DNA from: Marinobacterium mangrovicola
Lineage (GTDB): Bacteria; Pseudomonadota; Gammaproteobacteria; Pseudomonadales; Balneatricaceae
DNA length: 64,000 bases
Direction: 5' to 3'
Assembly (NCBI RefSeq): GCF_004339595.1
Contig: NZ_SMFU01000011.1
Location: 62,001 to 126,000 of the forward strand
Shown: in pieces, positions 6,111-47,995 of the stretch
Layout of the letters: every line of letters begins with the position of its first letter
How positions within the stretch are numbered: the first letter of the stretch is position 1
Notes under the pieces: model-generated
The model's input: only the letters and a program-made list of their open reading frames with translations
Database searches by the model: none
What the model was told of the DNA's origin: nothing
Program-made: the position numbers and the translations under genes

Positions 6111-6334
6111 CTAAGCGCACCAATCATCCCCTTCAGCGCAGCCGAGCATCGCAGGCTGAAAGAGAGAAACGGGATCGACTGTCTGAGCCGCGTAGCGGCG
6201 AGTTTGGAGATCACGCTCTTTCAGGCGAGAAGCACAGGGTAATCGGCGTAGCCGATCAAGCTGTCGGGGCGGTTTAGGATTGTTAAGGATCTTGGGCGCC
6301 CAAGATCCTTAACTCGCCAGCAGGCGAAACCTGC
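6111..6334 (+). repeat. Structured dispersed repeat, copy A
   Basis: First of five related intergenic elements in this window. It fills most of the 410-bp gap between the convergent dehydrogenase and yaaA genes. In order it shows: CTAAGCGCACC; the hairpin arms CTTCAGC and GCTGAAAG; paired CTGAAAGAG and CTCTTTCAG; GCCGCGTAGCGGC; the palindrome ATCGGCGTAGCCGAT; a long hairpin AAGGATCTTGG/CCAAGATCCTT; and GCAGG-CGAAA-CCTGC at the end. Short frames inside it are not genes. It may also serve as a bidirectional terminator for both neighbours. Confidence 0.9.
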
Positions 6335-6421
6335 GCTTGAAAAATGCTGAGGTAAAGATGAAACCAGCATTAGTTGCGACTGGGCTTCATTCAAATAAAC
6401 GATGCAGGGTAAAAACTATCC

Positions 6422-7204
6422 TTACTTCGCCGGCGGCTCATCCCGCAAGAAAATCCACTTATTCCCCTCAGACTGCTCCGGACTGAAGTAATAACCCTCC
6501 AGATCAAAGTTCTTCAGCGCCTCCGGATCGTCAATCCGGTTTTCAATGATGTAACGACTCATCAGGCCACGCGCCTTCTTGGCGTAGAAGCTGATGATCT
6601 TGTACTGACCGTTTTTCAGATCCTTGAAGTCCGGAGTGATAATCTCGCAATCCAGATTCTTCGGCTTAACCGACTTGTAGTACTCGTTGGAAGCCAGGTT
6701 TACCAGTACCGGGTTTTTCTGCTCGTTCAGTTCAGCCTGCAGTGATTCGGTGATGATGTTGCCCCAGAACTGGTAGAGGTTATCGCCACGCTTGTTTTTC
6801 AGCTTGGTGCCCATCTCCAGACGGTAAGGTTCCAGCAGGTCCAGCGGGCGCAGCACGCCATAGAGGCCGGACAGAATGCGCAGATGGTTCTGGGCGAACT
6901 CGAACTCTTCGGCGCTGAAGTTTTCCGCTTCCAGACCGGTGTAAACGTCACCCTTGAACGCCAGCACGGCGGGGCGGGCGTTATCCAGCGTGTGCTTGCG
7001 CTCCCAGCTTTCGTAGCGCGCCACGTTCAGGCTGGAGAGCTTGTCGCTCAGTTTCATCAGGTCGGCGATATCCTGCACGGCGAGGGTACGTAGCTGTTCG
7101 ATCAGCTCGGCAGAGTGCTCCAGAAACCGCGGCTCGGTGTGCCTGTCGGTGGCCAGCGGGGTTTCATAATCCAGAGTTTTTGCGGGGGAGATCAGAGTCA
7201 GCAT
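6422..7204 (-). CDS. yaaA: Peroxide stress protein YaaA (UPF0246)
   Basis: The 260-residue product begins [16 protein letters not shown], the signature of YaaA/UPF0246. The conserved [20 protein letters not shown] and [15 protein letters not shown] blocks are present, and the length matches the family. In E. coli YaaA is induced by OxyR and limits free iron and DNA damage during hydrogen peroxide stress; it is cytoplasmic and binds DNA. The gene stands alone, with repeat copy A downstream and a DUF2789 gene upstream on the same strand. Confidence 0.95.
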
Positions 7205-7327
7205 TGGAGTCGGGCCTGCAATCCTTGAGGTGAGTTAACCCGATGATACCCAACCTGACCGGTGGGAAAAAGGCGGCCGCTACCTCGTGAAGGAGCGGCG
7301 GTCTGTTGAAGTCTTGTTTAATGCCTG

Positions 7328-7570
7328 TCAATGCGCATTGCGCAGGCGAATATTGAGCTCGTCTACCACTTCGGCCCAGTCGGAGTCGGCCTGAATGGCG
7401 TCCTGTAAAAATGCGGCCTGGGAGTCGGTCCAGAAGGTCGCTTCATGCAGCGGAACCTCTTCACTGAACAGCCTGTGGGTCTCGATAAAACGGTCGATGG
7501 CCGCAGTGTCGCTGGGCAGGCCCAGCTGTTCGAACAGGGTATTCAACGTATGGCTACTGGTATCCATCAT
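7328..7570 (-). CDS. DUF2789 family protein
   Basis: This small acidic 80-residue protein matches DUF2789 as I know it: MDTSSHTLNTLFEQLGLPSD at the start and FWTDSQAAFLQDAIQADSDW before the end (WAEVVDELNIRLR). The family is common in marine gammaproteobacteria and has no known role. AGGAGG lies 8 nt before the ATG. It lies between yaaA and a small membrane protein gene on the same strand. Confidence 0.85.
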   Translation of the reverse strand: MMDTSSHTLNTLFEQLGLPSDTAAIDRFIETHRLFSEEVPLHEATFWTDSQAAFLQDAIQADSDWAEVVDELNIRLRNAH

Positions 7571-7681
7571 CTCTAAACCTCCTGTTTTCGATCTGTCGAT
7601 TGCCGGCTTCTCGTCCGGCCTGATATAAGCGCTTTAAGTATGGATCCACAGCACGCCATGTCAAAAAGGCGAGGCGACCCC

Positions 7682-7951
7682 TCAGGCACGCTTACGCTGG
7701 AACCACTGTTGCCCGATCACACAGATTAGTGCGCCGATAACCACAAAGATTGAATTGAGCACAGCCGGTGACTCACCGAGGAGTGATATCAGAGCACCGG
7801 CAAACACGAGCCCGCCAAACATGCAGAACAGGGCAATTAGCAGGCTGTGCGTGATCTCGCCGGCAGAGCGCGCTTTACGGCGTTTCACCAGTATCGCTGC
7901 AGGGATCAGAAAGCCGGCCAGGGTGATCAATGAGGGGAGCAGTTCGGTCAT
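7682..7951 (-). CDS. Small membrane protein, unknown
   Basis: An 89-residue protein with three likely membrane segments: about residues 4-22 (LLPSLITLAGFLIPAAIL), 35-57 (LLIALFCMFGGLVFAGALIS) and 64-82 (VLNSIFVVIGALICVIGQ). Basic KRRKAR between segments 1 and 2 and a basic C-terminus (QRKRA) are consistent with those ends being cytoplasmic. I do not recognise the family. It is divergent from trpS, and the ribosome site is weak. Confidence 0.6.
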   Translation of the reverse strand: MTELLPSLITLAGFLIPAAILVKRRKARSAGEITHSLLIALFCMFGGLVFAGALISLLGESPAVLNSIFVVIGALICVIGQQWFQRKRA

Positions 7952-8108
7952 TATTATTCTCGTTGCAGGTTAGCCTTGGAAAAGCGGTGAACAGGTGTAT
8001 GCCTTGCTTCGATTTTTGTACCATCTTGTTGCATCTCAAGACAGCCTCCAAAGGTCGATATCGTGTATGATATCGCCCCTCATACGCGAAGGATCCAAAG
8101 AGTAAACG

Positions 8109-9389
8109 ATGAGTAAAAAGACCGTACTGACTGGTATCACCACCTCGGGTACGCCGCACATCGGCAACTACCTGGGCGCGATCAAACCGGCCATCGAAGC
8201 AAGCGAGAACCCGAACTTCAACAGCTACTTCTTTCTGGCTGACTATCATGCGCTGATCAAATGCCATGACCCGGAGCGCGTGGCACGATCCACCCGCGAG
8301 ATCGCCGCAACCTGGCTGGCGCTGGGGCTGGATACCGACAAGGCGACTTTTTACCGTCAGACCGACATTCGCGAAATCCCGGAGCTGACCTGGATTCTGA
8401 CCTGCCAGACTTCCAAGGGACTGATGAACCGCGCCCACGCCTACAAGGCCGCCACCGACGCCAACCGCGACGCGGGGAGCGAAGATCTGGACGACGGTGT
8501 GACCATGGGTCTGTTCAGCTATCCGGTGCTGATGGCGGCGGATATCCTGATGTTTAACGCCGATATCATTCCGGTGGGCAAGGACCAGATCCAGCATATC
8601 GAGATGGCCCGTGATGTGGCTGGCCGTTTCAACCACGTCTACGAGCCGCTGTTCACCCTGCCGCAGGCACAGGTGGATGAAGAGACCCAGCTGATCCCGG
8701 GTCTTGATGGCCGCAAGATGTCCAAGAGCTACGACAACACCATTCCGCTGTTCTGCTCCAGCGATGAGTTGCGTAGCCTGATCAACAAGATCAAAACCGA
8801 CCTGCGTGCGCCGGGTGAGCCGAAAGACCCGGACAGCAGCACCCTGTTCCAGCTCTACAGCCTGTTCGCGAATGAGAGCGAACGTGCCAACCTGCGCCGT
8901 CAGTATGAAGAGGGGATCGCCTGGGGTGACGCCAAGCGTGAACTGTTCGAGTTCCTTGATGCCAAGCTGACCGCGCCGCGTACCCGCTACAACGAGCTGA
9001 TGAATGACATGGGCTACGTGGAAGAGGTGCTGCACAAGGGCGCAGAGAAAGCCCGCGCTTATGCGGCGCCTCTGCTGGAAAAAGTGCGTATCGCCGCCGG
9101 TATTCGTCCGCTGACTTACGTTCCTTCCGCCAGCGTTGATCAGGACGACAAGAAAAAAGAGAAGAGTGAAGAGGAGCTGGCCCGTATAGAAGAGGGCAAG
9201 CGTCGGGCTATTCTCAAGCAGGTTCAGCACCTGATCGACCGCGTTGTCGGCGCCGATGATAAGGGCGCGGCGGCGGTAGCCGTGGTGGAAGAGAAAACCG
9301 CCGAAGTGGAACAGCTAAAGAAGAAAGCCAGGCAGAAAGCTCAGAACGAACTGGATCTGCTCAAAGAGGAGCTGGCTGGCTACCTCTGA
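8109..9389 (+). CDS. trpS: Tryptophanyl-tRNA synthetase
   Basis: Class Ic aminoacyl-tRNA synthetase that charges tRNA(Trp). The HIGH-like motif is in TSGTPHIGNYLGA near residues 10-22, GKDQIQHIEMARD is the ATP/Trp site block, and the KMSKS loop is in DGRKMSKSYDN. At 426 residues it is longer than the roughly 330-residue E. coli enzyme. The extra C-terminal stretch after about residue 340 is highly charged and probably coiled (KKKEKSEEELARIEEGKRR, then VEQLKKKARQKAQNELD). Similar extensions exist in other gammaproteobacteria. sseA follows after 36 bp. The ribosome site is modest. Confidence 0.96.
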   Translation: MSKKTVLTGITTSGTPHIGNYLGAIKPAIEASENPNFNSYFFLADYHALIKCHDPERVARSTREIAATWLALGLDTDKATFYRQTDIREIPELTWILTCQTSKGLMNRAHAYKAATDANRDAGSEDLDDGVTMGLFSYPVLMAADILMFNADIIPVGKDQIQHIEMARDVAGRFNHVYEPLFTLPQAQVDEETQLIPGLDGRKMSKSYDNTIPLFCSSDELRSLINKIKTDLRAPGEPKDPDSSTLFQLYSLFANESERANLRRQYEEGIAWGDAKRELFEFLDAKLTAPRTRYNELMNDMGYVEEVLHKGAEKARAYAAPLLEKVRIAAGIRPLTYVPSASVDQDDKKKEKSEEELARIEEGKRRAILKQVQHLIDRVVGADDKGAAAVAVVEEKTAEVEQLKKKARQKAQNELDLLKEELAGYL

Positions 9390-9425
9390 TCCAGGCTTTG
9401 CCTGACGCTGAAAAGGGAGTGAGAG

Positions 9426-10283
9426 ATGTACGATACGCTGATAAGTGTTGAGCAGTTGCAGTCGTTGGACGATCCGCTGATTCTTGATTGCCGTTTCGTA
9501 CTCTCCACCTCGCCGGATGACCTCAGCGCCGGAGCCCGTGCCTTCGCCGCGGGCCATATCCCCGGCGCCCGCTATATGCATCTGGATGATGATTTTTCGT
9601 CATCGATCACGCCCGACTCCGGTCGCCATCCTCTGCCTGATCCGGGGCTGCTGCTCGCTAAACTGAAATCCCTAGGGCTTAGGTCCGGCCGTCAGGTGGT
9701 GCTCTACGATGACTCGGGTGCGGCGTTTGCTGCCCGTGGCTGGTGGTTGTTACGCTGGTTGGGCCATGCTGAGACTGCGGTACTGAACGGTGGCTGGAGT
9801 GCCTGGCTGGCAGCCAGTGGTGCTGTTGAAACAGGAGGTTCGGACCCAATCGTTACCGATGCTGAGGCTAGTGTTCAGGTCGACAGCGATGCGGTGGTCA
9901 GCGCGGATTCTTTGCAGCAGATGCTTTCCGATGAGGCCTTTCTGCTGGTGGATGCCCGTGCGCCGGAGCGCTTCCGTGGTGACGTTGAGCCCCTCGATCC
10001 CGTGGCCGGCCATGTGCCAGGCGCGGTCAATCAGCTGTTTACCGACAACCTCAAGGACGGTTGCTTCCTGCCGCAGGAAATCTTGCGTGAGCGCTGGCAG
10101 GTGCTGCTGGGTGAGCGTACACCCGAAGAGGTGGTGCATATGTGTGGCTCGGGTGTGACCGCCTGTGTGAACCAGCTGGCGATGGAGGCTGCAGGGCTCA
10201 AAGGTTCCCGCCTCTATGCCGGCTCCTGGAGCGAATGGATCCGCGATCCCGCCCGGCCCATAGCGACCGGCGACGACTCATAG
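9426..10283 (+). CDS. sseA: 3-mercaptopyruvate sulfurtransferase (tandem rhodanese)
   Basis: The 285-residue protein has two rhodanese domains. The N-terminal one carries LILDCRF and GHIPGARYMHLDDD; the C-terminal one carries VDARAPERFRG, GHVPGAVN and the catalytic loop MCGSGVTACVN. The CGSGVTA loop is the 3-mercaptopyruvate sulfurtransferase type rather than the thiosulfate type. It transfers sulfur from 3-mercaptopyruvate to thiol acceptors or cyanide. GGGAG precedes the ATG. It follows trpS closely, probably cotranscribed. Confidence 0.92.
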   Translation: MYDTLISVEQLQSLDDPLILDCRFVLSTSPDDLSAGARAFAAGHIPGARYMHLDDDFSSSITPDSGRHPLPDPGLLLAKLKSLGLRSGRQVVLYDDSGAAFAARGWWLLRWLGHAETAVLNGGWSAWLAASGAVETGGSDPIVTDAEASVQVDSDAVVSADSLQQMLSDEAFLLVDARAPERFRGDVEPLDPVAGHVPGAVNQLFTDNLKDGCFLPQEILRERWQVLLGERTPEEVVHMCGSGVTACVNQLAMEAAGLKGSRLYAGSWSEWIRDPARPIATGDDS

Positions 10284-10419
10284 CCAACTGCCTTCTGCAG
10301 CCTATTCCCGGGCGCCAATGCTGTCATTAAGCTACAAACGCTGTGCCGTTTTACCGCTGGTGCTCCCTATTTGTTGTTTAAATTTCATCCCAAGTATCTA
10401 TTGACCCAGGTTAACACCG

Positions 10420-10447
10420 TTGTCATCCCCTTTGGGTAGGCTATACT
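10420..10447 (+). promoter_or_regulatory. Sigma-70-like promoter
   Basis: TTGTCA (10420-10425) and TATACT (10442-10447) are separated by 16 bp and stand about 40 bp before the 65-residue ORF. This is the best promoter match in the gap after sseA. Confidence 0.55.
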
Positions 10448-10488
10448 TGTGTAAATAAACTACAAAAATAAACTGCTGGGGGTGTCAC

Positions 10489-10686
10489 ATGGAAATGCAA
10501 CAGCGTGTAAAGACCATCGCTATTCTGGGTGTCGATGGCGATAACTACGAGGTGGGCGGTGTTTATGTCGGTGAAGAGCGCAAGCCTTCCTGGTATACGC
10601 TGACCAAGTCGGACGACCGTAGCGTTCGTTTTGAAAAGCTCGATGCCTTCCCGAGCCATGAGCAGATTCGTGAAATGATTCACTGA
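10489..10686 (+). CDS. Small conserved-looking cytoplasmic protein, unknown
   Basis: A 65-residue soluble protein with its own promoter, a ribosome site (GGGGGT before the ATG) and a strong terminator immediately after, so it is very likely a real monocistronic gene. The sequence KTIAILGVDGDNYEVGGVYV followed by PSWYTLTKSDDRSVRFEKLD suggests a small beta-rich fold. I do not recognise a named family. A second ATG two codons in is an alternative start. Confidence 0.7.
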   Translation: MEMQQRVKTIAILGVDGDNYEVGGVYVGEERKPSWYTLTKSDDRSVRFEKLDAFPSHEQIREMIH

Positions 10687-10701
10687 GTGCGGGCTCGCAT
10701 G

Positions 10702-10731
10702 AAAAAAGCCGCGATGATTCGCGGCTTTTTT
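10702..10731. terminator. Bidirectional intrinsic terminator
   Basis: AAAAAAGCCGCG-atgatt-CGCGGCTTTTTT is a perfect stem with A and T runs on both sides. It ends the 65-residue gene rightward and cysK leftward. Confidence 0.92.
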
Positions 10732-10755
10732 GTGTCTGCACGGGGGGCGTCGCTC

Positions 10756-11724
10756 TTACTGAACGGTTTCGTTCTCGGTGAACATACCGGCGAACAGCGG
10801 AGAAGAGAGGTAGCGCTCGCCGGAGTCTGGCAGAATCACCACGATGTTCTTGTCCTTGTTCTCCGGCTTGGCAGCGATACGCAGGGCGGCCGCAGTTGCC
10901 GCGCCGCAGGAGATACCGGCCAGAATACCTTCTTTCTGCATAATGTCGCGGGCAGTTTCCATCGCTTCGTCATTGCTGACCTGTTCGATGGCATCCACCA
11001 GCTCCAGGTCCAGGTTTTTCGGCACAAAGCCTGCGCCTATCCCCTGGATCTTGTGCGGAGCCGGTTTCACCTCATCACCGTTAACGGTCTGGGTGATTAC
11101 CGGTGAATCGGTCGGCTCTACCGCGATAGAGGTGATCGCCTTGCCCTGGGTCTTCTTGATGTAACGGGAGACGCCGGTGATGGTGCCGCCGGTACCGACG
11201 CCAGCCACCAGGATGTCGATCTGGCCATCGGTATCTTTCCAGATCTCGGGGCCGGTGGTCTTTTCGTGGATCTCCGGGTTAGCCGGATTCTCGAACTGCT
11301 GCAGCATCAGGAACTGGTCCGGGTTGCCATCGACCAGCTCCTTGGCTTTTTCGATAGCACCTTTCATACCCTTGGCCGGTTCGGTCAGGTGAATATCGGC
11401 ACCCAGTGCCTTCATCAGCTTGCGACGCTCCAGGGACATGGAGGAGGGCATGGTGAGGATCAGCTTGTAACCTTTGGCGGCGGCGACGAAGGCCAGGCCT
11501 ATACCGGTGTTGCCGCTGGTGGGCTCAACCAGGGTCATGCCTTCCTTCAGCTTTCCGCTGGCTTCGGCGGCGTTGATCATGCTGGCGCCGATACGGCATT
11601 TTACGGAGCCTGCCGGGTTGCGCGATTCCAGTTTTGCGTAAAGGTTGCCGGCGGGCCAGAGGTGCTTCAGACGCACCAGAGGAGTGTTGCCGATTGTCTG
11701 TGAATTATCGTCGTAGATGTTCAT
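10756..11724 (-). CDS. cysK: Cysteine synthase A (O-acetylserine sulfhydrylase)
   Basis: PLP enzyme making cysteine from O-acetylserine and sulfide. The 322 residues fit E. coli CysK (323). The PLP lysine is K42 in [13 protein letters not shown], the substrate loop is [12 protein letters not shown], the PLP-phosphate loop is [15 protein letters not shown], and the C-terminal domain has QGIGAGFVP and [11 protein letters not shown]. The SVKCRIG form points to CysK rather than CysM. AGGAG lies before the ATG. No cys operon partner is adjacent; regulation by CysB would be usual but no clear site was identified. Confidence 0.95.
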
Positions 11725-12009
11725 AGCTCTCCTGTTCCTTGAAGCCGGTTTGCGCTAACCGGTTTGCCCTAGTTAGACGCCAGGTCTATTGCCTGGAATA
11801 GTTGGAACCGCACCGGAATCGATTCGTTCAGATATTCCGGTTTACAGGCCAACAGTGTAACCAATCTGGCGCGGTTTGCTCATACAGTCTTTGAATAAGG
11901 TTATAAAAAATAGAGTTCATATAATCTAAGGAGTTCACGCTTTTAGAGTTCAGCATGCTCCTGTAGATTGACCTTTTTCAGCTTTCTCCCCGACCAACAT
12001 GGAGTTCCG

Positions 12010-12489
12010 ATGCGGACGTTGATGCGGTGGTTATCGCCGGTTATTTTCTGGATCGCCTTTGCCATCTTCCGAAGTCCTTTATTCAAGCGGGCGCGCTGGC
12101 GTCACACCCTGGCGATGAAGCTGTTCCGCGTTGCCGCGGAAAGCGGCAGTGTCAGGGCGCTTTCAGTTTATGGCCATCTACTGCATTTTCGCGGCGAGGA
12201 TCTCGCCAGTCGTATCCAGGGCGCTATCTATCTGCAGCGAGCGGCAGAAAAAGGAGATATCAAGGCGCTGTATCAGATGGGTCGGATTCATGAGTCCGGC
12301 TTTGAACACTACTTTCCGGTAAAACCCGCTGAAAGCCTTTGCTGTTACCGGGCCGCCGCCGAGCAGGGGCATCCGCTGGCGCTGAAGCGGATGTGTGCGG
12401 TTTATGAAGAGGGTGGTTTGGGTGAAGCCGCGGATTCGGCCAGGGCGGAACACTGGCGGGCGCTGCAGGAACGCAGCTCGCCCGCCTGA
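12010..12489 (+). CDS. Sel1-repeat (TPR-like) protein with N-terminal membrane anchor
   Basis: Starting at the ATG at 12010, with GGAG 5 nt upstream, the product is 159 residues. The N-terminus has a hydrophobic anchor (WLSPVIFWIAFAIF), followed by Sel1-type helical repeats such as AMKLFRVAAESGSVRALSVY, AIYLQRAAEKGDIKALYQMG and CCYRAAAEQGHPLALKRMCA. Such solenoids mediate protein-protein contacts; no partner is evident. An upstream TTG would add 14 residues but lacks a ribosome site. It converges with the DUF4139 gene. Confidence 0.82.
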   Translation: MRTLMRWLSPVIFWIAFAIFRSPLFKRARWRHTLAMKLFRVAAESGSVRALSVYGHLLHFRGEDLASRIQGAIYLQRAAEKGDIKALYQMGRIHESGFEHYFPVKPAESLCCYRAAAEQGHPLALKRMCAVYEEGGLGEAADSARAEHWRALQERSSPA

Positions 12490-12510
12490 TCATGCTTGAG
12501 TGGGAAAATC

Positions 12511-13917
12511 TTAGTTACGCAGCAGTCTTACGCTGTACTCCAGTATCTTCTCACCCCCGGCGGGGATATCCAGGGTCCAGGACTGAATAGCTCCGATATC
12601 TTCGCCACGTTCGCTGCTGGCCAGCATGATGCGAGGCTGATTGAAAATAGCGCGGTAATCCAGCGTGCGGTCTTCTTTGCCGCTATTGCGGATGCTGACT
12701 TTGTAGCCGACCACCGTATTGGCCCCCTGGCGCTGAAACTCGGTTTGCTCCGTTTCTACGGTCAGGTCAAAGGCTTCGCCCAGCGTCAGCGTCACCTCTT
12801 CACCGGCGGCGGTGTCACCTAGCTGCTGACCACCCACGTAGGTGAGGCCGCGATTTTCCACTTCTCTGTAGACGCGTGCAGAGCCCCCAGGCAGAGGTAC
12901 ATCGGCTGTCTCATCGTTGGGTAGAGTAAAACTGATATCGTGACGCGGATGTCCGACCTGGGATTGGGCCTGTGCGCCACCGTAGACAGATTGATCAAAC
13001 CGGTAGTCGCTGCTCAATGCCATCTCGATGGGAGCCTGTAGCGGTACGCTGATGCTGGCGCCCTGTTTGAGGCTGACCGGTTCCGGCAGGGGGTAGAGCT
13101 GATAGTCCTGGGTTGTTTCCCGGTTTGGAGCCGCGTCAGCGGCGCCCATTTCCAGCTTGGCAGCCATGGCGTAAACCGGTACCCGGCCGTTGTTAGGCTG
13201 GTTGACCTTGCCCGCCAGCAGGCGCACCTCGGCGGCTTCCAGGTCGGTGCCGCTGTTATTGGTCAGCGTTGCGCGTCCTTCCAGCCGAATCTGTTTGCCT
13301 GCGGACAGAATCTCAAGTTGATAACCGGCTTGCCAGCTCAATCCGTTGGCTAGATAGCTCAGCTCGAGCTGATTGCCCGGTTCGCCGCTGCCCATCAGCG
13401 ATAGCTGTGCACCGGAGGTGGGTTGGTCGGTGCCGGGAATGCGGATGCGCCAGGGACCGGTAAAGGGAATAAATTCAGTGGCGCCGTTATCAGCGACCTG
13501 AATGCCTGAGCCCTCAACAAACAGCAGTGTCACCTGGCGTGGATCGGTGGCGCCATCCTGGTGGATCAGCTCTATTTCTTCACCCTGCAGATCCTGCAGA
13601 CGCTGGCTGAAGCCGGGGTTGGAACCACCCAGTTCGATGCGACGCAGGGGGCCGATACCGGTAGCGAAAATAGAGTCGGGCTGGAGCCGGTTGCTGATAT
13701 CGTCCAGGCGGATTTCGGCAGCGGTGGTGTCGAGAGTCAGCGGGTAGATTTCATTGAACAGCGCCAGATCCTGCTGGTAGATGGTCAGGATACGGCTGCT
13801 GCGATCTTCGGCATCCAGCACAAGATCAGGGGCTGCCAGCGCGCCCTGGCTGAGCAGCGCCAGACCCAGCGGGGCAAGGCTGAAAGGGATGAAATGCTTG
13901 GGCTTGGGGTGGAACAT
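12511..13917 (-). CDS. Exported DUF4139 domain protein
   Basis: The 468-residue protein has a signal peptide (hydrophobic PFSLAPLGLALLSQG, cleavage near ALAAP). The mature part is a beta-rich DUF4139-type protein: LSYLANGLSWQAGYQLEI, LEGRATLTNNSGTDLEAAEV and the end block YKVSIRNSGKEDRTLDYRAI. It is probably periplasmic. Function of the family is unknown. AAGGAG precedes the ATG. It lies 57 bp downstream of the pseudokinase/FGE-like gene on the same strand, so the two may form an operon. Confidence 0.85.
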   Translation of the reverse strand: MFHPKPKHFIPFSLAPLGLALLSQGALAAPDLVLDAEDRSSRILTIYQQDLALFNEIYPLTLDTTAAEIRLDDISNRLQPDSIFATGIGPLRRIELGGSNPGFSQRLQDLQGEEIELIHQDGATDPRQVTLLFVEGSGIQVADNGATEFIPFTGPWRIRIPGTDQPTSGAQLSLMGSGEPGNQLELSYLANGLSWQAGYQLEILSAGKQIRLEGRATLTNNSGTDLEAAEVRLLAGKVNQPNNGRVPVYAMAAKLEMGAADAAPNRETTQDYQLYPLPEPVSLKQGASISVPLQAPIEMALSSDYRFDQSVYGGAQAQSQVGHPRHDISFTLPNDETADVPLPGGSARVYREVENRGLTYVGGQQLGDTAAGEEVTLTLGEAFDLTVETEQTEFQRQGANTVVGYKVSIRNSGKEDRTLDYRAIFNQPRIMLASSERGEDIGAIQSWTLDIPAGGEKILEYSVRLLRN

Positions 13918-13974
13918 ACTATCTCCTTGTACGCTGTCTGGAGACGCTATGAACCGTGCGATAGGTCTCCAGCG

Positions 13975-23559: not shown

Positions 23560-23618
23560 TGCAGCGGTGTGCTTTTCTGTGCCTTGAAAATGATGAGGTT
23601 GAATTTAGTGCTGACTCT

Positions 23619-23796
23619 CTGAGCGCACCAGTTTTCCCCTTCAGCGCAGCCGAGCATCGCAGACTGAAAGAGAAACAAGGGAAAGGCTGTCTGAGCCGCG
23701 CAGGGGCGACTTCCCTTAAGGTGAAGAGTCGATCCCGCTCTTTTAGACGAGAAGCACAGAGGAATCGGCGCAGCCGATCAAGTTGTCGGGGCGGTT
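23619..23796 (+). repeat. Structured dispersed repeat, copy B (3'-truncated)
   Basis: Second copy, between the convergent nnrS and radD genes. It begins CTGAGCGCACC and keeps CTTCAGC/GCTGAAAG-type arms, CTGAAAGAG paired with CTCTTTTAG, and ATCGGCGCAGCCGAT, but stops at GGGGCGGTT and lacks the AAGGATCTTGG hairpin and the final GCAGG hairpin found in the other copies. It has an internal pairing AAGGGAA/TTCCCTT instead of the GGGACC-type stem. Confidence 0.88.
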
Positions 23797-23807
23797 CGAG
23801 CTAATCC

Positions 23808-25556
23808 CTACAACTGATTCGCCTTCCGATATTTCCCCTCATAATCAAACAACCGCTCCCGCACCCGCCAGTGGCTGTTCTGGCCCCGTCCCACCTTGCG
23901 GGCAATCACAAAGTCCGGCGCTCGAAAGCCCTCTGACTGGCTGACCACTTCATCGGCGGACTGAAACTTCTGTGGCTTGGCTCCGTCGCCAAAGCGTCTG
24001 CCAAACAGCCGGTTGAACACGCCGCGCTGGCCGTTATGGGTCAGATCGAAGCTTTCGCTCAGCTCTTCTCCCTGCTCGTCGTGATAGATGATCCTCAGCC
24101 GGCCGTTGGTGTTGCTGAAGCTGACACCGGCGCAGCGGATCACCAGCGCATCCTTTAGCTGCAGGGCGCGTTTGAGCAGATCATCCGGGTCCACCACCGC
24201 TTCGCCACACTGGTGGCAGTTGCGTGCGGCGATATCGTTCTCGGCGCCGCAGTGGGGGCACTCCTTGAAGCGGAACCGGTAATCGCACTGCTGTGGTGTT
24301 TCCCCCTCCATCTCAAGCAGGCCCTGGCAACGGCGGCCAAAGTGTTCGATCACCTGGCCCTCGGCATCGGTCTTGCCCCAGAAGATATTGGCGTGGCCGC
24401 AGCCGGGGCAGAACACCTGCACCGGCTCTGAGTTTGAATCGGGCCTGGGTTTACCCACCTCGGGGTGAAACAGATCAAAGCCGGAGCTGGCGTAATCGAT
24501 AATCAGGCAGTCGGTTTTGCCCGGGCTCAGGCGCAGGCCGCGACCGACGATCTGCTGGAACAGGCTCACCGAGGCGGTGGGCCTCAGGATTGCGATCATA
24601 TCCACATGGGGTGCATCGAAACCGGTGGTCAGCACCGCCACGTTAACCAGATAACGGATCTGTTTCTGTTTAAACGCCTGGATCAGTCGCTCGCGCTCAT
24701 CGGACTCGGTATCACCGATAATCAGGGCAGATTCATCCTTCGGCAGGTAACCGATGATCTCCTGGGCGTGGCGCACAGTGGCGGCGAAGATCATCACGCC
24801 TTCGCGCTGGCCGCCAAACTCCATGATCTGCTCGCAGATCGCCCGGGTGACCCGTGGGTGCTTGGCGATCAGGCTGTTTAGCTCGGTCTCGTTATAGCTG
24901 CCGCTGTCGCTGGGCTGCAGGGATGAGAAGTCGTAGTGGGCGATCGCTGCGTCGATCAGTTTCGGCTCGGTAAGATAGCCCTGCTTGATCATAAAGGGTA
25001 GCGGCAGCTCGTAGATGCAGTGCTGGAACAGGCGTTCCTCTTCGGCGCGCACCATGCCGCGATGGTGGTATTGGTAGATCCAGCCGTAACCCAGGCGATA
25101 GGGGGTGGCGGTGAGCCCCAGTACCTTAAGTCCCGGATTCCGTTCTTTCAGGTGCGCAATAATCTGCTGGTACTGGGAGTTCTCGTCGTCGCTGACGCGG
25201 TGACACTCGTCGATGATCAACAGGGAAAACTGATCGTCGAAACTGTCCAGGTTGCGCGCCAGGGACTGCACACTGGCAAAAGTGACCTGGTGCTCGTTGT
25301 CCCGGCGTCCAAGCCCCGCGGAAAAGATGCCACCATCCATCCCCAGTGCGGTGTATTTGGCGTGGTTCTGCTCCACCAGTTCGCGCACATGGGCCAGCAC
25401 CAGGATGCGGCGCCGCGCCAGTCGGGTCAGCTCGGCGATGACCAGGCTTTTGCCCGCGCCGGTGGGCAGCACGATCACCGCCGCCGCATCGCTTTTGCGA
25501 AAGTGGTTCAGCGTGGCGTCGACGGCGTCCTGTTGATAGGGGCGAAGGGTGTACAT
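23808..25556 (-). CDS. radD: DEAD/DEAH-box helicase RadD (YejH)
   Basis: A 582-residue superfamily 2 helicase, the same size as E. coli RadD (586). Walker A is [20 protein letters not shown], motif II is [10 protein letters not shown], motif [14 protein letters not shown], and motif [18 protein letters not shown]. Three zinc-binding clusters follow the motor: [17 protein letters not shown] and CHQCGE. RadD takes part in DNA repair and recombination, interacting with SSB and RecA in E. coli. The gene stands alone, between repeat copy B and an Lrp-type gene. Confidence 0.9.
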
Positions 25557-40415: not shown

Positions 40416-40463
40416 TGGAAGCCTCTAAGTACTGGTTTGAAACAGGTGCTATGTTAACCAAAA

Positions 40464-40635: not shown

Positions 40636-41047
40636 TTTTTTTCTTGCTCCAGTGCGACACTGTTGATAGTCTGCCGCCCATCTGGCGCAACTGGTTTACA
40701 CTGCATCGGGTGTGCGATGTTTTGCGTTGAGTTTAGTCAGAGAAAAGCCAGCCTGCTCTGCCAGGGTGCGGTTGCTTGCTTAGCAATCAGTGCTCAACAA
40801 GGGGAGCGGCGGACTTCTCGTTCACCAGGTCTTCGCCTGGCGTCAATGATCCCGGCCCTGTCATTAATGACGGGTACGGGCTAATGGCGTTGGCAGTTGA
40901 TACTGAAGGCTGGGCTAAACTGCGCAGAGCTACGTAATAGAAAGGCGTGACACAAGCTCCGTAAGAGAGTCGTCCGCTGTTTTCGGTACCGATCCGGTGA
41001 ACGGTAAAGCGCCACAATCCAAACGACCAAAAGATGGATAGCGAACA

Positions 41048-41437: not shown

Positions 41438-41530
41438 TACGCCGGATCACACCTCCACCGGGCGGCAGTTGTTGCCCGGTGCGACTATTATTCTTCAACT
41501 CTCGTCAACGTCAGAAAAAGGGCAGGCAAG

Positions 41531-44419
41531 ATGGCAACAGAACTCCGCGGATTGAGTGAACTGGAAGGTCACGACGAATTTACCCAGCGTCACATCGGAC
41601 CCGATGGGCAGGAAGAGCAGACCATGCTCGATACCCTGGGACTGAAATCCCTGGACGAGCTGATAGAGCAGGCGGTGCCAGCTTCTATCCGTCTTGATGA
41701 CGCTCTGGCGATGCCGGAAGGTATCACCGAAGTTGAGGCTCTGGCCGAGCTCGAAGCGATCGCCTCCAAGAACAAGGTGAAGCGTTCGATGATCGGTATG
41801 GGCTACTACGGCACCCTGGTGCCGGGCGTGATTCAGCGCAACGTGCTGGAAAACCCGGCCTGGTACACAGCGTACACGCCTTACCAGCCCGAGATCGCCC
41901 AGGGTCGTCTGGAAGCACTGCTGAACTACCAGCAGATGGTGATGGACCTGACCGGTATGGCGCTGGCCAACGCCTCTCTGTTGGATGAAGCTACTGCCGC
42001 TGCCGAAGCGATGACCCTGTGCAAGCGCTCCAACCGCAAGAAGACTGACATCTTCTTCGTGGCTGACGATGTGCATCCGCAGACCATCGACGTAATCCGT
42101 ACTCGCGCCGAATACTTCGGTTATGAAGTAGTGGTCGACAAGGCTGAAAAGCTGGAAGAGTACGACAGCTTCGGCGTGCTGCTGCAGTACCCGGGCACCC
42201 ACGGCGATATTGCCGATGTGGAAAGCCTGATCGCCAAGGCGAAAGAGCAGAAGTCCATGGTCTGCATCGCGAGCGATCTGCTGGCGCTGGTACTTATGAA
42301 GTCACCGGGTGACCTGGGTGCCGACATCGTTTTCGGTTCAGCTCAGCGTTTCGGCGTGCCGATGGGCTTTGGTGGCCCGCACGCGGCGTTCTTCGCCACC
42401 TCTGACAAGCTCAAACGCTCCGTACCGGGCCGTATCATCGGTGTATCCGTTGACAGCCGCGGCAACCAGGCGCTGCGTATGGCTATGCAGACCCGCGAGC
42501 AGCATATCCGCCGCGAGAAAGCGACTTCCAACATCTGTACCGCCCAGGCACTGCTGGCCAACATGTCCTCCTTCTATGCCGTTTACCACGGCCCGGAAGG
42601 TTTGCGCCGCATCGCCGAGCGCGTACACCGTTTGACCACGATTCTGGCCAACGGCCTGCGTCAGGGCGGCCTGAAGTGCAACGACACCTTCTTCGATACC
42701 CTGACCATTCAGGAAGCCAACGCTGGCGAAGTGATCGAAGGCGCACTGGCGGCCGGTTACAACCTGCGTCTTGTAGGTGGTGAGCATATCGGTATCAGCC
42801 TGGATGAAACCACTACCCGCAAGGATGTGGAAAACCTGCTGGCGCTGCTGCTGGGTGGCGATCACGGCCTGTCTGTGGACGCGCTGGACGCCAGCATCGT
42901 TGACGGCGAAACCACCGGCCTGCCGGAAGCGCTGCGTCGCACCGATGCCATCCTGACTCACCCGGTCTTCAACAGCTACCACAGCGAAACCGAAATGTTG
43001 CGCTATCTGAAGAAGCTGGAAAACCGCGATTACTCCCTGGTGCACGGCATGATCCCGCTGGGTTCCTGCACCATGAAGCTGAACGCCACCTCCGAGATGG
43101 CGCCGATCACCTGGGCCGCGTTTGCCAACATGCATCCGTTCGCGCCGCATGATCAGACTGCAGGCTACCTGGAGATGATTCGTCAGCTCGAAGAGATGCT
43201 GGTTGAGATCACCGGATACGACGCGGTTTCCATGCAGCCGAACTCCGGCGCCCAGGGCGAATACGCAGGTCTCTTGGCGATCCGCAAATACCAGGAGTCG
43301 ATCGGTGAAGGTCATCGTGATATCTGCCTGATCCCGTCTTCCGCTCACGGTACCAACCCGGCATCCGCCGCTATGATGGGCCTGAAGGTGGTGATCGTTG
43401 AGTGTGACGAGCAGGGCAACGTGGATGTGGCTGACCTGGCTGCCAAGGCTGAAGAGCACGCCGCCAACCTGTCTGCCCTGATGGTGACCTACCCGAGTAC
43501 CCACGGTGTTTACGAGCAGGAGATCGTCGAGATCTGCCAGATCGTGCACAAGTTCGGTGGCCAGGTTTACATGGATGGCGCCAACATGAACGCCCAGGTC
43601 GGCATCTCCAAGCCGGGCGTGATTGGCTCTGACGTGTCTCACCTGAACCTGCACAAAACCTTCGCCATCCCGCATGGCGGTGGTGGTCCGGGCATGGGCC
43701 CAATCGGTGTGAAAGCGCACCTGGCGCCGTTCCTGCCGGGTCACAGCGTTACCCACGTGGCGGGCCAGAAGCAGAACAACGGTGCCGTAGCCGCTTCTCC
43801 GTACGGCTCCGGCGCGATCTTGCCGATCAGCTGGATGTACATCCGCATGCTCGGTAAGAACGGCCTCAAGCGCTCGACCCAGATGGCGATCCTGAACGCC
43901 AACTACCTGACCGAGAAGCTGTCGGCGCATTACCCGATCCTCTACCGCGGCAAGCACGACCGTGTCGCGCACGAGTGCATCGTCGATATCCGTCCGCTGA
44001 AAGAAGCGACTGGTGTCACCGAAGAGGATATCGCCAAGCGTCTGATGGACTACGGCTTCCACGCTCCGACCATGTCGTTCCCGGTACCGGGCACGCTGAT
44101 GATCGAGCCGACCGAATCCGAGTCCAAGGCGGAGCTGGACCGCTTCATCGAAGCGATGGTCTGCATCCGTGGTGAGATCGCCCGCGTTGAAACCGGCGAA
44201 TGGACCGCCGAGAACAGCCCGCTGCACCATGCACCGCACACCCTGGCCGATATCACCGGCGCCTGGGATCGTGTCTACAGCATTGCTGAAGCGGTGTTCC
44301 CGACCGACGCCAGCCGCGACAACAAGTTCTGGCCGAGCGTGAACCGTATCGATAATGTGTACGGGGATCGTAACCTGATCTGTTCTTGTCCTTCGGTGGA
44401 TTCTTATCGCGAGGAGTGA
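41531..44419 (+). CDS. gcvP: Glycine dehydrogenase (decarboxylating), P protein
   Basis: A 962-residue, single-chain P protein, the full length of the E. coli type. It decarboxylates glycine with PLP and passes the aminomethyl group to GcvH. The PLP lysine is in [20 protein letters not shown]; other blocks are [35 protein letters not shown] and [14 protein letters not shown]. GcvH and GcvP share an operon ended by a strong terminator. The sequence is intact. Confidence 0.97.
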
Positions 44420-44446
44420 TCTTAGGGTTTAGTCCCTAGGAGACAT

Positions 44447-44477
44447 GAAAACGCCCGGCTATTGTGCTGGGCGTTTT
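44447..44477 (+). terminator. Terminator after gcvP
   Basis: AAAACGCCC-ggctattgtgct-GGGCGTTTTT: a GC stem followed by a T tract, 30 bp after the gcvP stop. Confidence 0.88.
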
Positions 44478-44498
44478 TGTTTGTGGTGGTGTTTTGTG

Positions 44499-44737
44499 CT
44501 TGGCAGCACTGGTTGGATGCAGGTTTCGCCTGCTGGCGAGTCAAGGATCTTGGACGGCCAAGATCCTTAACAATCCTAAGCCGCCCCGACAGCTTGATCG
44601 GCTTCGCCGATTGCCCTGTGCTTCTCGACTGAAAGAGCGGGACGGGAAACTCGGCTTCGCCTCAGACAGCCCGTCCCTTGTTTCTCTTTCAGCTTGCGAT
44701 GCTCGGCTGCGCTGAAGGGGGGTGGTGCGTTTAGAAG
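44499..44737 (-). repeat. Structured dispersed repeat, copy C (reverse orientation)
   Basis: Third copy, inverted relative to the others, between the convergent gcvP and MORN-like lipoprotein genes. Read on the minus strand it runs CTAAACGCACC, CTTCAGC arms, CTGAAAGAG-AAACAA-GGGACGGG, then CCCGTCCC-G-CTCTTTCAG, the ATCGGC/GCCGAT palindrome, AAGGATCTTGG/CCAAGATCCTT and GCAGG hairpins, and ends CCAGTGCTGCCAA like copy E. Its GGGACGGG/CCCGTCCC stem replaces the GGGACCGACT/AGTCGGTCCC stem of copy E. Confidence 0.9.
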
Positions 44738-44842
44738 GCTCAGTTGGAAGCCGCAACTTCAATATTTTACTCTGCCCTCCATTTCCCTGGCTGTGCTGAA
44801 AGGATTGTGCGTAGCAGAGCCTTGTATAGTTCGGTGATAGAT

Positions 44843-46747
44843 TTAATGTGCAGTGCCGCAGAACTTCTCGCTACACAGGTTCTCATAGCAGTTCACCTTG
44901 GCATCGATAGAGCATTTATACTCCCCCTCAGCCGAGGCCGACTCTTTACAAACCGGCTGTTGGGCCCAGCGAATTTCGGTCCGCATAGAGCTCCCACAAA
45001 ATTTGGACGCTTGGTTTTCCAGATTTGTTTTTGCTACATCTACAGCATATTCGTATTTTAAAAATGTGTCGGTGGTGCCAGTAAATGGGTAGTCGCGACC
45101 TGATCCCACATACTGATTTTCTTTGGGAGGTTGCTCCACGCTTCGGTTCGATTGAGTGGTCGCGGTCTGCATTTCGATATCATTAGCGGGGGTGCTTTCA
45201 CTCGTTGAGGCACTACGCGCAGCTACCTGAGTAGAGGTGCTAGTCGAGGTAGACTCTTGTTGTCTGTTTTGGTTTCCAGAGGTTACTACCTGTGACGCTT
45301 GTTCGACTTCTCCTTGTTCTTGGGAAATGTCTGGCATATTTGAATTGGCTCCCAGCGCAGATGAACCGGCTGGGAGGTTGGCGTTTGTGCTGGCTGTAGC
45401 AGGGGTGAATGAACGCTGAAAAGCGGCGTCGCTCCTGATTCGGTCGCCGATCTCGGTATCGAAATTCTGTTGCAGGTTCATCATAGCCTGGCCGTTTGTA
45501 CCGCCAACCACATCAGAGGCGAATGCACTGCCTATTTGGATCTTGGAAATGCTGTCGATGTCGGCTGTACCAATAATGGCGGTGCCGGCTGCCAGGGCGA
45601 AGACCTGGCCAAAGTCGATATTGCTGCTCCCGTCTCCCCATTGGACGAGAACGCCCTCATCGTATTTTATGGGGACCGGTTTATCGAAAGAGTCATCATA
45701 GTAGATTTTAAACCAGCCCTGCTCTTCACCATTAACGTATCGCCCTACAGTATATTCTGTGTAAAACGAGTCTATGTTGTTGTAAATCTCATAACCAACG
45801 CCGTTCCAGGTGTCATCTTTAGTTTCGCCCACACGAATAAAGTTGAAGCCATTGTAAAAGCCTGATATGCCCTCCCGGCTCCCTTCACTATAGGTGCCGA
45901 GGGTCACCTGATAAGTTGGCATACTCGCATACTCGGACTTAATTTGTTTGGCCGCCAATCCGTCAAAATTACCGTTTTTGAAGTCGCCGACAGATCGCAC
46001 ATACATTTGATCTGTATAGTTCCATATATTGATCCCGAACCCCTGAAAATGACCCTTGTTATCGAAGTCGCCATAGCGATGCCATTGGTAGCCGCTCTTT
46101 CTGAGCTCAGTTGTTAAAAGCCGAGCGTTTCGGCCTGCATTGGGAACACCTCCGATCTGGATCACACGGCGTCCGTCCGAACGCACCATGGTAAAGATCC
46201 CTTCAATCATTACTCCGCGGTCAAAACGCCCAACAAACTTGGCATCCGCCTGATCCGCTCTCGCCACACCCACACCTTGCGCTATTCCATTCAGACAGCT
46301 GCCTCGTACAAACTGCCAATCAAAGATATTAGGTTCATCGTTTGAGTTGGGGAAAAAGCCGTTTTTGTTAGTGATCGTACAAGCTGCTTCCTGACCGATC
46401 TCGGGATAGTAGGCTTCGACCGCCTTATCAAACCCCGCGCGGACAAGGTTGATATCGTTCATCATTGCCCGATGGTCGTATCGATTATTGAAACTGTCGA
46501 GAATAGCCAACTGGCGTGGATTGAATTGGAGTTCGTAAGGAGGTCCAGCAGGGTCTGGGGCGGTTGCGATTTTGATCATCTGCTTTTCCAGATCATTCAC
46601 AACAGGTGACTTTATATATCGGTTGCCACCGTAGGTCTTAAGATCTCTTGCGAAGTCCTGACTGTAGCCTTCAGGGGTGATAGAGCATCCAGCAAGCGCT
46701 GTCAGTGCTGATGAGAGTATGAACAGTTTTATCCATTGATTATTCAC
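44843..46747 (-). CDS. Large lipoprotein with MORN-like repeats, unknown function
   Basis: A 634-residue lipoprotein; signal FILSSALTALAGC with the lipobox cysteine near residue 21. Residues about 140-360 hold MORN-like units with G-x-G spacing (GIAQGVGVARADQADAKFVG, GHFQGFGINIWNYTDQMYVR, DDTWNGVGYEIYNNIDSFYT). A low-complexity Ser/Thr/Gln stretch follows (about 470-540), then a cysteine-rich C-terminal domain (about seven cysteines, e.g. VCKESASAEGEYKCSIDAKV). The start is GTG at 46747 with a weak AGGGA. It is AT-richer than the flanking core genes and resembles in style the exported operon at 32.6-36.5 kb. Confidence 0.72.
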   Translation of the reverse strand: MNNQWIKLFILSSALTALAGCSITPEGYSQDFARDLKTYGGNRYIKSPVVNDLEKQMIKIATAPDPAGPPYELQFNPRQLAILDSFNNRYDHRAMMNDINLVRAGFDKAVEAYYPEIGQEAACTITNKNGFFPNSNDEPNIFDWQFVRGSCLNGIAQGVGVARADQADAKFVGRFDRGVMIEGIFTMVRSDGRRVIQIGGVPNAGRNARLLTTELRKSGYQWHRYGDFDNKGHFQGFGINIWNYTDQMYVRSVGDFKNGNFDGLAAKQIKSEYASMPTYQVTLGTYSEGSREGISGFYNGFNFIRVGETKDDTWNGVGYEIYNNIDSFYTEYTVGRYVNGEEQGWFKIYYDDSFDKPVPIKYDEGVLVQWGDGSSNIDFGQVFALAAGTAIIGTADIDSISKIQIGSAFASDVVGGTNGQAMMNLQQNFDTEIGDRIRSDAAFQRSFTPATASTNANLPAGSSALGANSNMPDISQEQGEVEQASQVVTSGNQNRQQESTSTSTSTQVAARSASTSESTPANDIEMQTATTQSNRSVEQPPKENQYVGSGRDYPFTGTTDTFLKYEYAVDVAKTNLENQASKFCGSSMRTEIRWAQQPVCKESASAEGEYKCSIDAKVNCYENLCSEKFCGTAH

Positions 46748-46939
46748 AAAGCACGTCCCTTAAAAGTACAAGCCCAAATATTTTAGTATCTATAAGAAGA
46801 CTATTTTTATAATTTGAAAAAATCAACGAATATTAGCCGGAATCTACTCGGCTTAACCTACTAAAAAACGGGAAATCTCGAAGCTTCCTGGGCAAGGTAG
46901 TTAAAACATGGATATTAAATATTCTAGAAAGTTTGTGAT

Positions 46940-47033
46940 CAGGTCTGTGGACGTTGGATGGTGGCAGAGTATAAAAAATGGAAAGCTGCGCCCGAGTCCA
47001 ATGAAAGCTATCCGTGGAAAGTGCTACTGAAGT
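46940..47033 (+). pseudogene. Remnant of an Ada-type metal-binding gene (tandem duplicate)
   Basis: About 94 bp here align with the 3' end of the intact gene at 47429-47719: MVAEYKKWKAAPESNESYPW and the stop are kept, but a 1-bp deletion breaks the frame near the RPCGRC motif and the whole 5' part is gone. Repeat copy D follows it just as copy E follows the intact gene, so gene plus repeat were duplicated together and one gene copy decayed. Confidence 0.82.
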
Positions 47034-47059
47034 AACTGCTCCAGGTTTTGAGCCTGCTA

Positions 47060-47290
47060 GTGGCACCGATAACCCCTTCAGCGCAGCCGAGCATCGCAGG
47101 CTGAAAGAGGAAAAAGGGACCGACTGTCTGAGCCGCGTAGCGGCGAGTTTGGAGATCCCGCTCTTTCAGACGAGAAGCACAGGGTAATCGGCGCAGCCGA
47201 TCAAGCTGTCGGGGCGGTTTAGGATTGTTAAGGATCTTGGCCGTCCAAGATCCTTGACTCGCCAGCAGGCGAAACCTGCAATCAAGCAGC
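47060..47290 (+). repeat. Structured dispersed repeat, copy D
   Basis: Fourth copy, downstream of the decayed Ada-type gene. It is nearly identical to copy A in the middle (GCGGCGAGTTTGGAGATC) and to copy E at both ends (TGGCACCGA..., ...TGGCCGTCCAAGATCC, CCTGCAATCA). It fills most of the gap before the intact duplicate gene. It is the only one of the five not between convergent genes. Confidence 0.92.
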
Positions 47291-47428
47291 CCCGCTTTAA
47301 CCAAAAGTCCCATTTTCTGAATCGCATCGCATGCAATACTCAATCAGAACCTAAAGGTTGGTTACGCATAGATACATTAATTGAAGCGTCGAATGACCGT
47401 CATTAATCGGTAGTTAAGAGGGTAGCGG

Positions 47429-47719
47429 ATGAAGACCTACGAGCTTCTGGCAGCGGATGGAAACACGGTCCGCAGTGGAACCCCGGGTAAGTTGGGCGGC
47501 AACTCCAAGGCGGGTATCTATGGACGTCTGGACTGCACGGCAGCGAACGCTGCGCTGTCAAAAGGTTACGCGGAGCACCGTGTGTTTTTCGCAGATGAAG
47601 CCACGGCGATTGAGGCCGGCTACAGGCCTTGTGGACGCTGCATGGTGGCAGAGTACAAAAAATGGAAGTCAGGTCCCGATGAAAATGAAGACTACCCATG
47701 GAAGGTACTCCCCAAGTGA
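47429..47719 (+). CDS. Ada-type metal-binding domain protein
   Basis: A 96-residue stand-alone protein related to the N-terminal zinc domain of Ada. The block HRVFFADEATAIEAGYRPCG, followed by RCMVAEY, is the usual second half (C-x2-C). The first half, GIYGRLDCTAANAA, keeps only the second cysteine of Ada's C-x3-C; the position of the methyl-accepting cysteine (Cys38 in Ada) is glycine. It is therefore unlikely to repair methylphosphotriesters as Ada does, though it may still bind metal or nucleic acid. AGAGGG precedes the ATG. It has a decayed tandem copy upstream and repeat copy E downstream. Confidence 0.82.
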   Translation: MKTYELLAADGNTVRSGTPGKLGGNSKAGIYGRLDCTAANAALSKGYAEHRVFFADEATAIEAGYRPCGRCMVAEYKKWKSGPDENEDYPWKVLPK

Positions 47720-47740
47720 TAACTTCTTGCCAAAACCATC

Positions 47741-47995
47741 TAATGGCACCGACAACCCCTTCAGCGCAGCCGAGCATGGCAGGCTGAAAGAGGAAAAAGG
47801 GACCGACTGTCTGAGCCGCGTAGCGGCGACTTACTTTGAGGTGGAGAGTCGGTCCCGCTCTTTCAGGCGAGAAGCACAGGGTAATCGGCGTAGCCGATCA
47901 AGCTGTCGGGGCGGCTTAGGATTGTTAAGGATCTTGGCCGTCCAAGATCCTTGACTCGCCAGTAGGCGAAACCTGCAATCAGCCAGTGCTGCCAA
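47741..47995 (+). repeat. Structured dispersed repeat, copy E (best-folded)
   Basis: Fifth copy, between the Ada-type gene and the convergent pyrophosphatase gene. It shows the fullest fold: CTGAAAGAG (47784-47792) and GGGACCGACT (47799-47808) pair exactly with AGTCGGTCCC (47847-47856) and CTCTTTCAG (47858-47866). The ATCGGCGTAGCCGAT palindrome, AAGGATCTTGG/CCAAGATCCTT hairpin and AGGCGAAACCT hairpin follow, and the element ends CCAGTGCTGCCAA. Confidence 0.93.

Follow-up and report, generated by a model that had tools for sequence, protein, structure and literature searches.

The window analysed here, a 64-kb stretch of the Marinobacterium mangrovicola genome (G000, 4.98 Mb in 15 contigs; window at C5:62001-126000), contains five copies of a structured intergenic repeat with a unit of ~225 nt. 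A preliminary description of this DNA had reported five such elements, and all five were recovered in place, with copy limits based on a covariance model. Copy A (6108..6334, + strand) is full length and lies between the convergent genes of an FAD-dependent oxidoreductase (4779-6011, +) and yaaA (6422-7204, -). Copy B (23616..23818, +) lacks the 3' part and has a rearranged inner segment; the shifted pairing formerly proposed for it is the peculiarity of one odd copy, as the copy at the same site in a relative, apparently M. lutimaris (G003; locus L231), is full length with an ordinary stem. Copy C (44519..44737, -) adjoins gcvP and is the left half of a widely spaced head-to-head pair completed by the full-length copy D (47054..47279, +). 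The pair encloses an open reading frame (ORF) of 634 aa (44843..46747, -) that has a lipoprotein-like start, judged by eye, and gave no Pfam match and no PADLOC match. In the gcvP/pyrophosphatase gap that holds this pair, the G003 counterpart instead carries a CSD-DUF1294 gene and an Ada-like gene.

A decayed 3' fragment of an Ada-like gene (46946..47033, +) lies directly upstream of copy D, and an intact Ada zinc-binding-like gene (PF02805; 47429..47719, +) is followed in sense by copy E (47737..47976, +), which is full length and of the long apical form. Fragment and intact gene each directly precede an element, as if the gene end and the element had been duplicated as one unit, and the arrangement of an Ada-like gene plus element is present also in M. 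lutimaris (L054).

Copy number here and in relatives

A search of the whole genome with copy D as query returned 50 rows, 40 of which were element copies. The covariance model returned 51 rows, which after removal of four weak opposite-strand rows (24-27 bits) left about 47 copies, with 150 of 1590 candidates scored and truncated and short forms counted among the 47; the earlier expectation of many copies in the genome was correct. The model found 43 copies in the congener G003, eight in the congener G001 (after the same clean-up) and three in G006. The mean identity between copies was 0.807 within the own genome and 0.813 between genomes, and copies at different loci therefore draw on one common pool.

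A branched fold and its strand

The fold was assessed on an alignment (A1) of 85 copies, drawn from three genomes and extending close to both profile ends, eight incomplete ones having been excluded from the 93 copies that scored >60 bits. A 67-pair branched structure, drawn by hand from RNAalifold results, was standard-paired in 97.2% of 5668 cells, compared to 89.1% after shuffling, which ignores relatedness, and 33.9-49.5% when slid by 1-3 columns, a control that flatters the fold as the structure was fitted to the same sequences. Pairs changing on both sides numbered 29 (18.4 shuffled) and double-change cells 458 (125 shuffled), and none of 500 shuffles reached any of five covariation measures. 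The many pair types found at single positions (pair 212-255 is AU in 40 copies, UA in 24, CG in 13 and GC in 6) are safer evidence of covariation than the shuffled and slid controls. Covariation was far above both controls by these measures (R-scape was not used), and both arms of the inner stem do vary, as first described (pairs 75-132 and 76-131).

Helix P1 (CTGA..CCCC..CAGC with GCTG..GGGG..TTGG) closes a three-way junction carrying the long P2 and the short P3 (RTCGGC/GCCGAY), and the hairpins P4 and P5 come after it. As judged by eye from the alignment, P2 contains a near two-fold symmetric segment, with CGAG-A-CGCAG occurring twice, in which A residues are extruded and A.A/G.A mismatches occur; its apex is CTGTYTGAG-hairpin-CGAGTT. 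The CTGAAAGAG/CTCTTTCAG arms, the ATCGGC..GCCGAT hairpin and the AAGGATCTTGG/CCAAGATCCTT hairpin of the preliminary description are real and conserved. Two other pairings had to be revised. The hairpin GCAGG-CGAAA-CCTGC is unsupported, with many copies having CCGGC on the 3' side and GCAGG unchanged, and 98.8% of cells show pairing in a competing helix, TCGCC/GGCGA, which has both-side changes at 267-276. In the CTTCAGC arm, the partner of CAGC is a GCTG located further 3' (columns 34-37 with 182-185), not GCTGAAAG.

The covarying pairs contain 61 G-U cells (22 of them in a single pair) compared to 6 A-C cells. The other strand would show the reversed ratio, so the + strand (CTGAGCGCA...CCTGC) is the folded one, and this wobble asymmetry fits RNA or single-stranded DNA alike. 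A strand-specific fold is under selection. It had been proposed that selection acts on a folded RNA or a cruciform; the covariation across 85 copies upholds selection on the fold, and the excess of G-U over A-C cells makes a two-strand cruciform less likely than a folded single strand. Single-copy energies singled out no strand, both beating shuffles (z -3.25 for + and -3.32 for -), and the predicted structure of a single + copy deviates from the covariation fold in P1/P2.

Compensated changes may also arise from template switching in hairpins (quasi-palindrome correction) in the absence of selection, and long imperfect hairpins are known template-switching substrates. We consider this origin very improbable here, as the conserved bulges and A.A/G.A mismatches in A1 remain unrepaired, the wobbles are strand-asymmetric and several separate helices covary.

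Variant forms were also seen. Four short forms of 117-145 nt (G000 C8:199448-199592, C2:335681-335824, C1:86513-86629 and C3:201226-201345) match both model ends, as if the long P2 arm had been deleted. The apex (A1 columns 101-128) occurs in a short form, GAGTTT, and a long form with about 15-20 extra nt, and L021 and L234 show the two forms in otherwise near-identical same-site copies of two species. L029, L243 and L245 make up a subfamily with nine G003 loci (L220, L223, L225, L229, L233, L236, L238, L240 and L241), sharing another 70-100 nt outside the element, on one side or on both, and the unit of this subfamily may be longer than 225 nt.

Gene ends and terminator-like signals

Gene orientation was taken from a home-made codon-score gene finder. 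Both neighbours could be assigned for 80 of the 93 copies in the three genomes (13 could not), and 56 of these lie between convergent genes, 16 are in tandem sense, 6 in tandem antisense and 2 between divergent genes. The background in the window, 60 adjacent predicted gene pairs, was 17 convergent, 26 tandem and 17 divergent. With other settings of the same gene finder, 30 of 40 own copies were convergent. For the 16:6 excess of sense over antisense, a one-sided binomial test gives 0.026, a value that treats all copies as independent, which same-site copies in two species are not.

Of the 44 own copies, 20 had a terminator-like signal in the head-side 160 nt (3.2 in letter shuffles) and 10 had one in the tail-side 140 nt (4.4 in letter shuffles). 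A crude terminator scan on the elements themselves, run without a shuffled control, flagged the + strand of 21 and the - strand of 3 of the 44 elements, and we suspect that these flags come from the apical hairpin before GAGTTTCC. The former idea of a mobile terminator finds little support, since a signal already stands on the head side at those 20 copies and the 3' hairpins have no T-run after them, P4/P5 being followed by an A-rich, not T-rich, stretch.

The main rival to a mobile element is a transcribed RNA structure of the 3'-untranslated region or gene end, kept by the host to protect mRNA 3' ends, for processing or to keep convergent genes apart, and copied by recombination rather than transposition, which we regard as possible though doubtful. 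The convergent excess (56/80 compared to 17/60) and the strand-specific wobble agree with such a role, as do the scarcity of decayed copies (40 of the 44 own >60-bit elements extend to within 60 positions of both profile ends, the four short forms being additional to these 44) and the lower change at paired sites in the six closest shared copies, given below. However, the convergent bias is equally predicted by least-harm insertion, as argued for Pseudomonas fluorescens repeats in the available text of PMC2718517, and the head side of 20 of 44 copies (3.2 shuffled) already carries a terminator-like signal.

Distribution in other bacteria

A covariance model (R1) built from Marinobacterium copies alone was tested on 51 loci, 11 of them distant relatives and 40 chosen by hand from at least 115 loci with the apical pattern, mostly of Proteobacteria. 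R1 matched 47 of the 51 at E up to 1, the unmatched loci being L044, L071, L072 and L145. Positions 1-227 of R1 were matched at E 1e-14 or better in Neptuniibacter, Pseudomonas abyssi, Pseudomonas neustonica, Halopseudomonas, Azonexus and other Rhodocyclaceae, and a 2.5-Mb Variovorax replicon (L258) carries two full head-to-head elements 245 nt apart. Under stricter filters, 23 of 293 genomes drawn from the order, own included, matched R1 at E up to 0.001.

The apical pattern by itself was found in at least 115 stretches in many phyla, whereas at even base composition chance would give ~0.06 matches. In 48 of 99 tested stretches the motif was flanked by a stem of at least six pairs without interruption, compared to 6.9% with swapped partners. 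The apex loci of Lachnospiraceae and Bacteroidales are very long hairpins, on which R1 matched nothing at L071, L072 and L145 and only the apex at L082 (17 bits); common origin with them is a lead, not a result. Very long hairpins with the same apex were seen at L072, L145, L088, L143 and other loci in Lachnospiraceae, Eggerthellaceae and an Acidobacteria metagenome-assembled genome, and in the Lachnospiraceae the outer arms vary between copies yet remain complementary.

Plasmids and phages searched with one window copy gave no match, and neither did plasmids searched with an Azonexus copy and a Bacteroidales copy, nor E. coli searched with the Azonexus copy. A Halopseudomonas copy matched 12 plasmid records, of which 11 aligned only across some 50 nt close to the 3' end. 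Four plasmid records were examined: L258 holds the full Variovorax pair, L261, a 4.9-Mb Aeromonas record labelled plasmid, has one weak R1 match, and L259 and L260 have none. In viral contigs the apical pattern was absent and the 5' pattern occurred once (L262), unconfirmed by R1.

Head-to-head pairs

In 41 loci with 71 R1 matches, all 24 neighbours within 200 bp were arranged head-to-head, with 5' ends facing, and none were tail-to-tail or in tandem. A single match was found at 14 of the 41 loci, and the copies of the own genome are mostly single. The facing 5' ends of the pairs are 24-183 nt apart, which leaves little room for a promoter, and read-through from one side always meets one of the two members in antisense; both points speak against a 3'-end RNA role.

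Ten close pairs (24-154 nt apart), being those of the three genomes with two or more pairs, had a mean arm identity of 0.640, and only 19 of 20000 re-pairings within the genome gave a value as low. Five gene-enclosing Marinobacterium pairs, 772-3484 nt apart and from taxa other than those of the close pairs, have arms 0.82-0.91 alike. Selection against close near-identical palindromes would explain the dissimilarity. As the arms are unlike in close pairs, it is each member's own fold that is kept and not pairing between the members, and the way in which dissimilarity varies with spacing may preserve a legible trace of selection against close palindromes.

Enclosed genes and turnover between species

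At one site with the same outer genes, the enclosed genes differ in three species, each set standing between inverted elements. The own genome has a 626-aa reverse transcriptase (RT)-protease there (PADLOC RT-Protease_XI, E 8e-188), G003 has three ORFs with weak ATPase and Mrr matches below Pfam cut-offs and two more genes, and G001, where one outer gene only was aligned, has a GIY-YIG protein (PD-T4-3 match, E 7e-14). No RT family match was found in G003. At L010:4061-5941 (-) on G000:C2, a pair of inverted elements encloses a fusion of a retron-type RT with a trypsin-like protease (RT-Protease_XI), and the RT gene of L197, also between elements, is the same. A Neptuniibacter locus (L083) has a PIN-like ORF, its family assigned by eye, between two elements. 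An apparent 214-nt duplication in L010 proved to be two overlapping flanks of the same DNA.

By script count, 19 of 44 own copies have both flanks and orientation in common with a G003 or G001 copy. Sixteen of the 19 are firm; L243 and L245 rest on 76-95-nt multi-copy matches and L033 on 58 nt upstream. Some same-orientation shared copies are mosaic, and in seven more gaps both species have an element in opposite orientation with mostly unalignable spacers. In one of these comparisons (L011/L057), the own head-side spacer retains about 35 nt that match the inverted G003 element at its tail end and in the adjoining flank (13.6 bits), as would be expected if a pair had lost one member. These comparisons show that the copies turn over.

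In the six best-conserved shared copies, 8 of 803 paired positions and 27 of 563 unpaired ones differed; over all ten shared-copy comparisons the counts were 68 of 1339 and 82 of 922, respectively. The ten comparisons held 43 changed pairs, 23 of them compensated, 7 one-sided and 13 broken, and the 13 broken pairs count against a structure kept by the host at the 3' end.

Candidate enzymes and possible mode of spread

The search found no transposase linked to the element. A MITE-like nature, as formerly proposed, is plausible and unproven, with no target duplication, empty site or linked transposase found (MITE, miniature inverted-repeat transposable element). Around the apical-motif loci, the 25 ORF clusters listed looked, by eye, like repeat translations or common genes, with no family search made on them. 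Y1_Tnp matches were found in six of eight genus genomes, own included, and were strong in G007 only. These matches would suit a true repetitive extragenic palindromic (REP)/REPIN system moved by a REP-associated tyrosine transposase (RAYT; TnpA-REP), as would the inverted doublets, the bulged single-strand fold and the intergenic, dispersed location. We nevertheless judge such a system improbable. The element is far bigger than a REP and multi-branched, the sole Y1_Tnp match of the own genome is interrupted by stops, and G005 has a short element and no Y1_Tnp match. The ~1.5-kb flanks of the Y1_Tnp loci L069 and L185-L190, from six genomes, contained no element, and none was found when L069, L188 and L189 were searched with R1 too.

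The own genome also encodes an integron integrase, IntI (G000:C1:594124-595071, -; 438 bits, above the family cut-off). An attC-like recombination site that follows genes as cassettes would account for the strand-specific fold with extrahelical bases and for the enclosed genes (Ada-like, retron RT-protease, GIY-YIG and, by eye, PIN-like) that are followed by an element in sense, but it is hardly probable at all. R1 had no match in L257, the locus around this IntI, the pair members are inverted, and G001 has eight elements with no IntI over the cut-off. A fixed GTT/AAC box is absent, with free variation in columns 204-206 paired with 261-263, and the enclosed ORF L053:5034-6464 has no element following in sense.

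We tentatively prefer, at a little less than an even chance, a REPIN-like non-autonomous dispersed element with a selected single-strand fold, moved by a factor acting in trans. This reading starts from what is observed, namely the fold and its strand, the dispersal, the gene-end location, the head-to-head pairing in related taxa and the turnover. We also count in its favour the common sequence pool, the seven gaps with oppositely oriented elements, the enclosed genes that vary at one site and the arm identities at short and long spacing. The folded + strand would be recognised by a protein and would serve as substrate for an enzyme provided in trans. The pair would be the ancestral, mobile unit, as proposed for REPINs in the available text of PMC3116915, with the two outward-pointing tails as its ends and the genes between the heads as passengers. 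Single copies would be pairs minus one member, for which L011 is one clear case with no general support.

Several results weigh against the preferred reading. Lost-partner remnants beside the 93 copies were in no general excess (none with a 26-column model; five head-side minus-strand hits at 7 bits with a 16-column model, compared to 3.6 shuffled), L011 being the sole clear case, and our confidence was lowered by this. No insertion event, precise empty site or target duplication was resolved in the gaps compared, in which spacers are largely replaced. The flanks of the Y1_Tnp loci are free of elements, as given above, and among mobile-type records the Variovorax replicon was the sole good match, phages giving none. 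Finally, the low change at paired sites suggests that resident copies have a role in place and not mobility alone; a role in place and mobility may both be true.

A broader interpretation, which we think unlikely, joins two proposals. The element would belong to a large superfamily of single-strand-folded elements with the apex CTGTYTGAG-hairpin-CGAGTT, recognised by a protein and ranging from Proteobacteria to Lachnospiraceae, Bacteroidales, Coriobacteria and candidate phyla, and the Gammaproteobacteria pairs would be the ends of a gene-carrying platform that swaps defence-type genes (retron RT-protease, Mrr-like nuclease, GIY-YIG, PIN-like) at fixed sites.

The strong covariation, the about 40-47 copies in two genomes, the range from Gamma- to Betaproteobacteria and the lack of an Rfam 15 entry together suggest that some factor that acts on folded single strands has yet to be discovered. 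The pairs offer a direct test of spread without a linked transposase and of the swapping of defence-type genes.

Comparison with known systems

Rfam 15 at the gathering threshold gave nothing on the element in the window and only tmRNA and tRNA rows in 18 other loci, and one copy searched at E up to 10 gave two chance-level rows; a match to a described family, considered at the outset, was thus not seen in Rfam 15. Literature searches, which covered sources other than subscription papers and supplements, turned up no paper describing the element, and it is undescribed in the available text of PMC2718517, PMC3116915, PMC2267715 and PMC8266576. The R-family repeats of P. fluorescens (R0, R2, R6, R26, R178 and R200) resemble it, as far as the available text describes them, in being intergenic and structured, in having tens of copies and in their tail-repeat-tail bias, and R200 (320 bp, 47 copies in SBW25) is in a similar size class, the comparison being with its description and not its consensus (PMC2718517). 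We place the element, which has no Rfam 15 entry, among the dispersed structured repeats.

Bacterial MITEs and enterobacterial repetitive intergenic consensus (ERIC) sequences are short, non-coding, multi-copy and structured. The element is like them in those traits, by description; it differs in that no terminal duplications or parent transposase were found and in its strong covariation at about 0.81 mean copy identity. Integron attC sites act as a folded single strand with extrahelical bases and lie beside gene 3' ends, all of which the element shares; unlike attC, it forms inverted pairs, has no fixed R boxes and was not found at IntI.

REPINs and bacterial interspersed mosaic elements (BIMEs), as presented in the available text of PMC3116915, are like the element in being dispersed intergenic inverted doublets that fold as single strands and are non-autonomous. 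A REP is defined as a 20-40 bp palindrome with a GTAG/CGTC tag in the available text of PMC3733652. By eye, A1 has no fixed GTAG at either end of the element (CGTC was not searched separately). The element thus has the inverted doublets of REP/REPIN systems and differs from them in size, tag and RAYT flanks: REPs, in the sources as available, are 20-40 bp palindromes beside a RAYT gene, whereas the element is ~225 nt and branched, with no linked RAYT found. It also differs in its pairs, the two members of a close pair being, unlike those of a REPIN, unusually dissimilar.

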